A DNA stretch of 64,000 nucleotides, taken from positions 3,472,001 through 3,536,000 of the forward strand of contig NZ_VFPL01000001.1 of assembly GCF_006716645.1 (NCBI RefSeq). The letters run 5' to 3'. How positions within the stretch are numbered: position 1 is the stretch's first letter; the number at the start of each line of letters is the position of its first letter. This DNA comes from Arcticibacter tournemirensis (GTDB lineage: Bacteria > Bacteroidota > Bacteroidia > Sphingobacteriales > Sphingobacteriaceae). A model generated the notes under the pieces. It saw nothing but the letters and a program-made list of their open reading frames with translations. It did not search any database and was not told where the DNA came from. Positions 18,404 to 21,932 of the stretch are shown here, piece by piece. Both the position numbers and the translations under genes were made by a program.

Positions 18404-18694
18404 TCATTCTTCACTCAGCAACCGGTTCCATTGTGGATGACGCTTAAGGAATGTCGCTACATAAGAACAATAGGGTACCAGCTTTAAGCCGCGTTCCTCT
18501 ATGTCGTTGAATGCTTTTTCTACCATTCCGGCAGCGATTCCTTTGCCTTCGAGTTCTTCAGGCACTTCTGTATGCGTAAGGTAAATGATATTGTCCTTTA
18601 TCTCATAGTCGATAAAAGAAAGAAGTCCCTCAACTGTTAGTTCATACCGTTGCTTACTTTCATTATTTACCAGCTTAATATCGTTATATTTCAT
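18404..18694 (-). CDS. Small GNAT-like N-acetyltransferase
   Basis: 96 residues of the short GCN5-related type (YjdJ/NATD1-like). The acetyl-CoA loop is EELEGKGIAAGMVEKAF and the end LVPYCSYVATFLKRHPQW is characteristic. No signal peptide. Substrate unknown. The stop is only 4 bp from the stop of the convergent sugar dehydrogenase, so the two transcripts must overlap. Confidence 0.85.
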   Translation of the reverse strand: MKYNDIKLVNNESKQRYELTVEGLLSFIDYEIKDNIIYLTHTEVPEELEGKGIAAGMVEKAFNDIEERGLKLVPYCSYVATFLKRHPQWNRLLSEE

Positions 18695-18750
18695 ATAGTA
18701 CAGTGACTTTGAAGTTTAAAACAAAAAATTATAGATTTTTTAAATTTATT

Positions 18751-18780
18751 TGCAACCTTTCATACCTCGCTCCGTATAAT
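18751..18780 (+). promoter_or_regulatory. ECF-sigma-type promoter of a candidate small RNA
   Basis: TGCAACCTTT serves as -35 and CGTATAAT as -10. The core AAC and CGT are exactly 16 bp apart, the spacing typical of ECF sigma promoters. It points away from the GNAT gene and toward a short terminator-ended segment with no ORF. Confidence 0.55.
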
Positions 18781-18784
18781 CAAG

Positions 18785-18852
18785 TGTCCTCCCAAAGGAC
18801 ATGTTTTTCATAGGTAGATGTAGGGCTGAGTTTTTTAACTCGGCCCTTTTTT
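18785..18852 (+). ncRNA. Candidate small RNA, about 68 nt
   Basis: Lies on the plus strand between two minus-strand genes, directly after the ECF-type promoter. Two hairpins are visible: a 5' stem TGTCCT/AGGACA with loop CCCAA, then an unpaired linker containing GTTTTTCATAGG, then the stem GGGCTGAGTT/AACTCGGCCC and a run of six T. No start codon with a useful ORF exists. The structure is that of a discrete small RNA rather than a leader, because no plus-strand gene follows. Confidence 0.5.
18823..18852 (+). terminator. Rho-independent terminator of the candidate small RNA
   Basis: GGGCTGAGTT, loop TTTT, AACTCGGCCC (10-bp stem with one G-T pair) followed by TTTTTT. The T tract exists only on the plus strand, so it does not serve the flanking minus-strand genes. 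Confidence 0.8.
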
Positions 18853-18856
18853 ATTC

Positions 18857-20854
18857 CTATTGAAAAACGCTTTTTGCCTTCTTTACAGCTTTTTCGAGGT
18901 CAATCCCTTCGCCAAGTGCTCCTGCAAATAAATCCCCTTCTGTTCTCAGTCGCCCAATGGCATTGAATATGTTATAGTCTTTCATTTTCAATCCCGGTTT
19001 TACTTCGTCCCAGTGAAGCGGCATAGAAACAGTGGCGTTTGGCTTGGGGCGCAACGAGTACGGCCCGGCAATTGTGGCGCCCGGACGGTTCTGCAGAAAG
19101 TCGAGATACATTTTCCCTTTACGGTTCTTAATCTGCCTTTCAATACTGGTGTAACCTGGTATTTGCCGATGTACGATGTTGACCAGCAACCGGGCAAACA
19201 GCTGTGACTGATCGTATGTGTATTTAGCGCCCATCGGGATGTAGATATGTATGCCTGTGGACCCTGAGGTCTTGCAAAAACAGGGGACATCTATAGCGTC
19301 GAGCACCTTCTTAACCGTGAGCGCGGCTTCGATTACCTGTTCAAAAGTATTTTGATCGGGATCCAGATCAATAACACAGTAGTCGGGGTAATCCGGCGAC
19401 TGCACCCGTGAGAACCAGGGATTCATTTCAATGCATCCCAACGAAGCCATCCATAATAAGCTCGCTTCATCTTTAGGTACAAGAAACTCCTTATGCTCGC
19501 CGTCACTGGTTGTGTATGGAAATGTTTCTGCCCAGGCGGGGGCTTTGTCTTTTACGTTCTTCTGGTAAAAGCCTGGTTTGTTAATACCGTTCGGAAACCG
19601 GTTGAGCGACTGCGGACGATCTTTCAGATAAGGCATGATGTACTCGCCTACCTGATAGTAGTAGTTAAACAGATCGCGCTTTGTTATGCCATCCTCCGGC
19701 CAGTACACCTTGCTGAGGTTGGTAAATTTGATATCATGCCCGCAAATCTTACGTACCTGAGTCTCGTCTTTTGGATTTAGAAGCGACTTCCGTGTTTTAT
19801 CTTTCGGCGCAGCAATCATTTTCTGCCTCAATGGTTCAGGCTCATCCTTCACTACCTCATCCGTATGTGCTGCCTTTTCGCGAACTACGTCCCTTGCTTT
19901 TTTATCCTCACGCAAGCCTTCAAAAGACGGATGTCTGAACACGCCGTCTTCTGTTACTTCCGCAAAGCTAACTTCACAAACAAGCTCCGGCCTCAACCAG
20001 ATGGCATCGGCCCTGGGCGGGTTCGGGCGAAACCGCGAGGGCTTATTATAGTCTGGCACCGTATGAAAGGGACAGTCATCAGCAATCATGGGCCTGAATC
20101 TCTCCATCAGTTCTTTTTGCACTTTCACGCTGAAGCCAGTGCCAACTTTACCGACGTATTGAAGCGTATCGCCTTCGTATACACCTAACAGCAGGGAACT
20201 AAACAGTTTGGTGCTCCCTTCATTCCTGGTAAAACCTCCAACCACTACTTCCTGACGTTTATGAATCTTAATTTTAAGCCATTCGCGCGAACGAAAGTCA
20301 GGTATGTACAAACTGTCCGCTTTCTTTGCAATGATTCCCTCGAGCCCCATACGCTGCGCTGCGTGAAAAAACTCCGTACCATTCGCCCTGAAAACCTCGC
20401 TCAATCGTATCCGGTCGTCAGCTAACGGAAGAACTTCTTTTAAAATAGCCTGACGCTGAGATAATGGCAACTCCATCAAATTTTTTCCATCATACCACAA
20501 GATGTCGAATACGTAAAACACAAGATCGCCGTCGGCTTCACTTCTCCAGTTTTGTAAGGATGAAAAATTTGACACCCCTTTATCGTTCAGCACCATAATC
20601 TCACCGTCAAAAACAGCATTGATATTCCATTGCTTCAGGATATGATATAGTGGATAAAACTTTTCATTAAAGGATTTCTTATTCCGCGACATCAGTTCTA
20701 CTTCTCCCCCCTTTATAAAAGCAAGCGCCCTGTATCCATCCCACTTAACCTCATATACCCAGTCGGGATCGTCAAAAGGTTCATCTACAAGCGTGGCAAG
20801 CATCGGCTTGATGCCTTCAGGAAATTCGGATTTGGGAGCTTTCGCGGGGGCCAT
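18857..20854 (-). CDS. ligD: LigD, ATP-dependent DNA ligase-polymerase
   Basis: 665 residues. The ligase domain comes first (about 10-310) with adenylated lysine K37 in YEVKWDGYRAL and later EGIIAKK and REWLKIKIHK motifs. The OB fold follows, then the primase-like polymerase domain (about 375-650) starting LSKVYWPEDGITKRDL, with VIDLDPD for metal binding and the KTSGSTGIHIY signature. It joins and fills double-strand breaks in bacterial non-homologous end joining. The N-terminal phosphoesterase domain found in many LigD proteins is absent, and no ku gene is present in the window. Start at 20854 lies inside a short tandem repeat. Confidence 0.95.
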   Translation of the reverse strand: MAPAKAPKSEFPEGIKPMLATLVDEPFDDPDWVYEVKWDGYRALAFIKGGEVELMSRNKKSFNEKFYPLYHILKQWNINAVFDGEIMVLNDKGVSNFSSLQNWRSEADGDLVFYVFDILWYDGKNLMELPLSQRQAILKEVLPLADDRIRLSEVFRANGTEFFHAAQRMGLEGIIAKKADSLYIPDFRSREWLKIKIHKRQEVVVGGFTRNEGSTKLFSSLLLGVYEGDTLQYVGKVGTGFSVKVQKELMERFRPMIADDCPFHTVPDYNKPSRFRPNPPRADAIWLRPELVCEVSFAEVTEDGVFRHPSFEGLREDKKARDVVREKAAHTDEVVKDEPEPLRQKMIAAPKDKTRKSLLNPKDETQVRKICGHDIKFTNLSKVYWPEDGITKRDLFNYYYQVGEYIMPYLKDRPQSLNRFPNGINKPGFYQKNVKDKAPAWAETFPYTTSDGEHKEFLVPKDEASLLWMASLGCIEMNPWFSRVQSPDYPDYCVIDLDPDQNTFEQVIEAALTVKKVLDAIDVPCFCKTSGSTGIHIYIPMGAKYTYDQSQLFARLLVNIVHRQIPGYTSIERQIKNRKGKMYLDFLQNRPGATIAGPYSLRPKPNATVSMPLHWDEVKPGLKMKDYNIFNAIGRLRTEGDLFAGALGEGIDLEKAVKKAKSVFQ

Positions 20855-21056: not shown

Positions 21057-21932
21057 ATGTTTGATATCTGCTGTATAGGACACATTACCTTAGATAAAGT
21101 CATTACTCCCGGTTCGGAAGTAAATATGCCGGGGGGCACTTCTTTTTATTTTTCAAACGCCCTAAGCAACATGGACGTGAGCTACAGCCTGCTTACCTCT
21201 ATCGCCGCCAGCGAAAGTTATATTATCGATGGTTTGAATGCAAAGGGAATACATACTGAAGTATTCTGGGGAAAACATACTGTTTGCTTTGAAAATATCT
21301 ATAGCTTCGATCAGGATCACCGGCAACAGCGGGTACTCGAAAAGGCCGATCCTTTCAATATGGCTCAGCTGAGCCATGTTAATGCCAAAATATATCACCT
21401 CGGTCCCCTGCTCGCAGACGATATACCGGTTAACATGATTGAACATCTGTCGCAGAAAGGAATTGTGTCGCTTGATGTTCAGGGATATCTCCGTGAAGTG
21501 AAAGATCAGCAGGTGCTGGCTATCGACTGGCTTGAAAAGAAAGCAGCCCTTCCCCATGTAGGGATCCTGAAAGCCAACGAAACCGAAATGGAAGTATTGA
21601 CAGGGTGTATCGACATCCGTGAAGGCGCAAAAGCCCTGGCCGGAATGGGTGTAAAAGAAGTGGTGATTACCCTGGGCAGCAAAGGGTCTGTAATCTATTC
21701 TGAAGGAGTTTTTCACAACATCCCTGCTTACAAACCCACAGCGGTGGTAGATGCAACGGGTTGCGGCGACACGTATATGGCTGGGTATTTATACAAAAAA
21801 TCGAAAGGAGCTTCCTGCTATGAGGCAGGTACCTTCGCAGCGGCGATGGCAACCTTAAAGATCGGAACTTCGGGTCCTTTTTCGGGCACCAGTGAGGAGG
21901 TGATAAAATTATTATCAGCGAACCTGCAGTAG
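21057..21932 (+). CDS. PfkB-family carbohydrate kinase
   Basis: 291 residues of the ribokinase/PfkB fold. The N-terminal GHITLDKV and PGGTSFYFSNAL segments form the substrate site. The C-terminal signature VDATGCGDTYMAGYL holds the catalytic aspartate and the anion hole; the usual GAGD reads GCGD here. ITLGSKGSV is the second conserved segment. It phosphorylates a sugar or nucleoside with ATP in the cytoplasm. The substrate is not deducible; adenosine or inositol-pathway sugars are possible for this subgroup. Confidence 0.87.
   Translation: MFDICCIGHITLDKVITPGSEVNMPGGTSFYFSNALSNMDVSYSLLTSIAASESYIIDGLNAKGIHTEVFWGKHTVCFENIYSFDQDHRQQRVLEKADPFNMAQLSHVNAKIYHLGPLLADDIPVNMIEHLSQKGIVSLDVQGYLREVKDQQVLAIDWLEKKAALPHVGILKANETEMEVLTGCIDIREGAKALAGMGVKEVVITLGSKGSVIYSEGVFHNIPAYKPTAVVDATGCGDTYMAGYLYKKSKGASCYEAGTFAAAMATLKIGTSGPFSGTSEEVIKLLSANLQ

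Follow-up and report, generated by a model that had tools for sequence, protein, structure and literature searches.

Comparative computation establishes that a segment of intergenic DNA in Arcticibacter tournemirensis belongs to a family of small RNAs (sRNAs) with two hairpins, an invariant linker between them, and two classes of promoter. This segment lies on the plus strand of the window, by which we mean the whole stretch of 64,000 nucleotides that was analysed, and its extent (18780-18852) was set by a covariance model, R2, that held no same-genus sequences and matched it at 85.7 bits (E = 2.6e-14). The sRNA family is restricted to one family of Bacteroidota and is apparently undescribed: no match listed in a literature search on sRNAs in the genera of the Sphingobacteriaceae dealt with such a family, and the literature found on the FopS sRNAs of Bacteroides, judged by title and abstract, contained nothing on Sphingobacteriaceae. 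With moderate confidence, we regard the window copy as a free-standing, trans-acting RNA of about 70 nt from a one-family, multicopy group of FopS-like sRNAs, in which certain paralogues, this one included, would be driven by an ECF sigma factor.

The copy sits between two minus-strand genes identified by Pfam, with a small GNAT acetyltransferase (PF14542; 18404-18694) as its divergent neighbour and ligD, with its ligase and primase-polymerase domains (18857-20854), as its convergent one. Across this region (18404-18855), a ligD transcript that reads on toward the GNAT gene would run antisense to the sRNA. As the first-pass annotation had it, a promoter of the AAC-N16-CGT kind, a 5' hairpin, a linker, and a plus-strand terminator are all present here, and no plus-strand gene is in reach, as the next one downstream begins only at 21057 if short ORFs inside ligD are set aside. 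The -35-like AAC (18754-18756) lies within TTTGCAAC (18749-18756) and the -10-like CGTATAA at 18773-18779, which leaves 16 nt between the AAC and the CGT (18773-18775), and the GCAAC..CGTA string as a whole spans 18752-18776. Transcription would start just ahead of the 5' hairpin, at about 18782-18785. This hairpin (18784-18802) pairs 18784-18790 with 18796-18802 around a CCCAA loop, and although its presence had been foreseen, the fold gives 7 pairs, one of them G-U, rather than the 6 bp first counted. Next come the linker TTTTTCATAGGTAGATGTAGGG, a putative seed (18804-18825; 15-nt core at 18805-18819), and the intrinsic terminator (18822-18853), whose 11-pair stem (18822-18847) leads into a T tract. 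The predicted fold has an energy of -26.5 kcal/mol (z of -4.0), and none of 200 shuffles was as stable. With its own promoter, a conserved structure, an intrinsic terminator, and no overlapping co-oriented gene, the copy has the features of a trans-encoded intergenic sRNA, and the earlier proposal of a free-standing RNA of about 68 nt is supported, at a length of about 68-75 nt.

Hairpins, linker, and distribution of the family

The 22-nt linker occurs four times in the A. tournemirensis genome, and a reversed-pattern control has no match. When 60 genomes including this one were searched with the linker pattern (up to 3 mismatches), 30 matched, these being A. tournemirensis itself and 29 of 36 relatives from the same family; the 23 genomes that represented other families in the same class gave no match, and the reversed pattern matched four of the 60 genomes, once each. 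Relatives that carry the sRNA have between 1 and 14 linker matches per genome. A covariance model run over 395 genomes of the phylum found matches in 11, every one of them from the same family. In 864 kb of A. tournemirensis sequence, the model without same-genus sequences picked out only the four known copies convincingly, with the next match at E = 0.15. Among viral contigs, there were no exact copies of the 22-nt linker.

From 75 linker matches, nine were removed by a hairpin and terminator filter and three as repeat sequences, which left 63 distinct copies. Each begins with a 5' hairpin and ends in a terminator hairpin that covaries, with a mostly unpaired linker in between. No letter of the 15-nt linker core, UUUUCAUAGGUAGAU, differs among the 63, though this invariance is partly ascertained, because the search that yielded the copies used the linker pattern (with mismatches allowed) and the nine weaker matches were dropped. 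The core's mean paired probability is below 0.25 in 53 of the 63 copies.

The hairpins behave differently from the linker, as their sequences change while pairing is kept. In an alignment of 40 of the 63 copies, hand-picked for diversity, 15 of 17 hairpin pairs have changes on both sides, with 104 cells carrying such two-sided changes as against 33 in shuffles. The covariation score of 0.463 (0.259 in shuffles) was reached in none of 500 shuffles, and slid versions scored at most 0.175. In the terminator, each of the 10 pairs modelled shows a two-sided change in one relative or more. The 5' hairpin is imperfectly placed by the alignment (65.8% of its cells are paired) and RNAalifold on its own retained only the terminator; folded one by one, the 5' parts give 40 different stem sequences. 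The covariation result was repeated with a second alignment of 16 sequences from outside the genus. A lack of conserved stems in related genomes had been named beforehand as evidence that would count against the sRNA, and the sRNA withstood this check, its stems being kept in those relatives by compensatory changes; the covariance search that had been proposed, with a model built from relatives, likewise recovered the window copy (E = 2.6e-14).

Next to ligD, one relative has a tandem array of three copies spaced by about 120 bp (L024; G004:C73:241407-241669), each with an ECF-type promoter and a terminator. These are the counterparts of the window copy, of which A. tournemirensis has a single one by ligD. 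The only other GNAT locus found, in a Mucilaginibacter MAG (L009), is without an sRNA copy, the best match there having 6 mismatches.

Putative role of the linker

In the mechanism that we propose, the 5' hairpin would cap the transcript and the terminator would end it, and the mostly unpaired invariant linker (UUUUUCAUAGGUAGAUGUAGGG) between them would be the functional site. Its complement, CCCUACAUCUACCUAUGAAAAA, reads like a translation start (AUG AAA AA), and the linker might thus cover mRNA start codons and repress translation as FopS does on susC in Bacteroides. We take start-codon repression as the likeliest mode of action by analogy with FopS, and not from target evidence. In fact, shuffling the 3' half of the linker does not worsen its pairing with 670 start regions of A. 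tournemirensis (longest-ORF starts taken from the window and roughly one seventh of the genome), and in 60 of 60 shuffles the ten strongest pairings surpass those of the real linker. Predicted pairing with 30 SusC starts does not differ from background (p = 0.60). With ATCTACCTATGAAAA as the pattern and up to 2 mismatches allowed, a genome search located 26 sites, four of which are the antisense of the sRNAs themselves, with the 22 others comparing with 17 in the control; by eye, 7 of these 22 resemble MK.. gene starts. Moreover, 40 non-sRNA TACCTATGAAA sites, picked by hand among the matches listed for nine genomes, disclosed no recurring gene start.

A core that is identical in 63 of 63 copies without a matching enrichment of targets also suits a fixed protein partner. 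The linker would then serve chiefly to bind protein, and the sRNA would capture or titrate an RNA-binding protein, of the RRM type or another, instead of pairing at start codons, a reading that we find unlikely but that has several points in its favour. According to the available text of one report, the RRM protein RbpB binds FopS and antagonises its repression (PMC11697453). There are four RRM_1 proteins in the A. tournemirensis genome, and in the relative with the tandem copies an RRM_1 gene (G004:C117:285537-286191) lies, divergently oriented, about 0.4 kb from an sRNA copy. However, while RRM_1 occurs in 11 of the 16 same-family genomes searched (G000-G015), it was not found in G008, G009, G010, and G015, all of which bear the sRNA, and so an RRM partner is at least not obligatory. 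FopS itself, as far as the same text describes it, does both, binding protein as well as pairing with mRNA (PMC11697453). A further RRM_1 gene and sRNA copy were seen about 5 kb apart on one strand in the A. tournemirensis genome (4192392 and 4197790).

Promoter classes

Taken in the window alone, the promoter string is not above chance (one AAC-N16-CGT-type string seen for 0.51 expected, with at least one in 40 of 100 shuffles), and the single locus on its own could therefore not settle the question. It is the other copies that lift the promoter above chance, because 16 of the 63 have AAC-N16/17-[CGA]GTA at the same fixed distance ahead of the linker, compared with 0.36% of 31,499 control positions, and because the window copy is recovered (E = 2.6e-14) by the model that lacks same-genus sequences. 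Within this class, the CGTA form accounts for 11 copies (0.13% of control positions). The class consensus is TGtAAC-N16/17-CGTA, and the window copy belongs there. At positions that lie outside the search pattern, a G stands two places ahead of the AAC in 16 of 16 copies and a T directly ahead of it in 14 of 16. An AAC at -35 and a CGT at -10, separated by 16-17 nt, is what we take to be the form of an ECF-sigma promoter; in the literature searched, no paper on ECF promoter letters in Bacteroidetes came up. The ECF-like elements of the first-pass annotation are thus common to 15 other copies, all 16 being located in six genomes of three genera, though not all of them are independent events, as some are close duplicates.

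More commonly, copies have a TAnnTTTG at a fixed distance ahead of the linker (27 of 63, versus 0.46% of control positions), which corresponds to the -7 element of sigma-ABfr as described in the available text of PMC7366714. Neither promoter form is found in 20 of the 63 copies. Every one of the six genomes with ECF-type copies also holds a TAnnTTTG copy.

The ECF-type copies occur in varied settings, many ahead of convergent genes, and among the genes beside those other than the window copy are response regulators, a BLUF photosensor, and a YtxH protein, a setting that would fit with stress control. One contig (C9 of G035; L033, L066, and L067) has four ECF-type copies within 11.4 kb, which adjoin histidine-kinase-like, response-regulator, and BLUF genes, in a genome with 14 linker matches overall. 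Searched genome-wide in A. tournemirensis, the promoter pattern is not enriched (6 sites, with 4 in the reversed control). A GYAAC-N16-CGTATAA site in this genome is found 83 bp ahead of a GldJ/GldK-like lipoprotein gene. A T9SS/SigP regulon was considered and dropped, as loose matches upstream of gldK were seen in 6 of 29 loci and at varying distances.

That the window copy is instead read by the housekeeping sigma factor, with its AAC and CGT letters being incidental, seems improbable to us. A TTTG (18749-18752) and a TATAAT (18775-18780) can indeed be picked out there, and the AAC..CGTA string alone is at chance level in the window, but no TAnnTTTG is in the right place, 16 copies have AAC-N16/17-GTA at one and the same offset with an invariant G, and the three tandem counterparts in G004 keep GNAAC..CGTATA without that TTTG. 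About as improbable is a cis-acting leader or attenuator, in which the terminator would stand ahead of a downstream gene and regulated read-through would control it. This would suit the TAnnTTTG copies, 16 of 27 of which lie a short way ahead of a co-oriented gene for a UbiX-like flavoprotein (16 loci, e.g., L002:898-1467; in A. tournemirensis the gene that follows is PF02441, with the UbiX name assigned by eye), and this is probably the ancestral site of the family. Yet the window copy is followed by no plus-strand gene until 21057, bar the short ORFs inside ligD, and the ECF-type copies occupy varied settings, many of them before convergent genes. As for a tiny encoded peptide (MFFIGRCR...), we give it very little credence, since an in-frame ATG does precede the linker in 46 of 63 copies but is missing in 17, including two of the three tandem ECF copies of G004, the residues after the start vary, and the 15-nt core is without a single synonymous change in 63 copies, which points to constraint at the RNA level.

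We thus retain the free-standing, trans-acting RNA, for which the two promoter classes suggest a division of labour. Most genomes have a copy with a housekeeping (sigma-ABfr) promoter, and six of the genomes examined also have ECF-type paralogues, the window copy among them, such that the same seed would be produced under a second, probably stress-related, condition. Here, we infer the transcript ends, the ECF factor that reads the promoter, the induction of the sRNA by stress, and the trans action of the RNA through start-codon pairing. As a whole, the earlier reading of the locus is partly supported; it is extended by the multicopy nature of the family, the invariance of the linker, the greater frequency of the housekeeping promoter among the copies, and the resemblance of the linker to the FopS seed.

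Comparison with known small RNAs

To our knowledge, sRNA biology in Bacteroidota is known mainly from Bacteroides. An identical 15-nt core, combined with a switching of sigma-factor promoters, in another family would be a compact test case for the sRNAs of this phylum, and would tie post-transcriptional control to its many ECF factors.

The closest parallel is FopS (RF04319) of Bacteroides thetaiotaomicron, which, in the available text, comprises 14 paralogous sRNAs that block the translation of susC mRNAs, with which they pair at the start codon (PMC11697453). Both are multicopy (four paralogues in A. tournemirensis), of about 65-75 nt, and with a single-stranded UGUUUUUCAU seed, present in our linker by local alignment, that is followed by a terminator hairpin; moreover, many copies in both have a sigma-ABfr promoter. 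The linker has UGUUUUUCAUAG in common with the start-codon seed of FopS, and when it is aligned to the Rfam model of FopS, the linker falls opposite the 5' seed GUGUUUUUCAU. The local alignment sets UGUUUUUCAUAG--GUAGAUGUAGGG over UGUUUUUCAUAGUAUUAGAUUUAAGG; in dinucleotide shuffles, 5000 per comparison, the score was equalled or exceeded 2 times for this FopS variant, 41 times for the second, and 13 times for an f25 sequence (see below). In contrast, the window copy scores 16.4 bits against a gathering cut-off of 56 for RF04319, no A. tournemirensis copy has a gathering-level match in Rfam, and the FopS model found none at E ≤ 0.01 in 11 same-family genomes. Whereas the FopS seed is at the very 5' end, our linker has a hairpin ahead of it. 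FopS promoters are reported as sigma-ABfr, while our family has a second, ECF-type class, and the canonical sigma-ABfr promoter, present in 27 of 63 copies, is absent from the window copy. Nor does the predicted pairing of the linker give a SusC target signal like the susC start pairing of FopS. Because two defining features of FopS were tested and not found, we do not file the window element under FopS, though it may work like it.

GibS (RF04182), also from B. thetaiotaomicron, has the R1 seed in common with FopS, and, in the text available, uses a non-canonical PM2 promoter beside the canonical class (PMC7366714), a parallel, at the level of promoter class, to our ECF-type copies. However, the match to the GibS model scores 15.9-21.3 bits against a cut-off of 115, and GibS is about twice as long (142 model positions). 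The best raw Rfam score for 18700-18900 was that of suhB/mmgR (RF00519; 25.8 bits, E = 0.0012), which has a similar layout, but this is below the cut-off of 41 and stems from the hairpin arrangement and T tract rather than the linker. As identities for the element, suhB, the L20 leader, sbrA, and others were rejected, all being below cut-off.

In a third set, in family f25, TTTTCATAGGATAAGGTTTAATGG is followed by a hairpin and a T tract. Its loci (L320-L325, L330, and L331) show a multicopy, terminator-linked TTTTCATAGGATAAGGTTTAATGG, several with TATATTTG directly upstream. Separately, the FopS seed GTTTTTCATNGTATTAGAT was seen in 60 viral contigs (L256-L315), with some of the copies, by eye, immediately following tRNA-like 3' ends, as if serving there as a 3' element.

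Among enterobacteria, the sigma-E-dependent MicA and RybB are alternative-sigma RNAs that cover the start regions of envelope-protein mRNAs and are Hfq-dependent. Our sRNA would act alike if the ECF reading is right, its targets being putative. Tentatively, and with less than even confidence, we further suggest that FopS, the window family, and the f25 set form one Bacteroidota-wide superfamily with a UUUUCAUAG anti-start-codon core, in which the window family displays a split between housekeeping and ECF promoters. If so, one seed would serve both the resting state and the stress response, and this arrangement would be the phylum's counterpart of the sigma-E-controlled envelope sRNAs.
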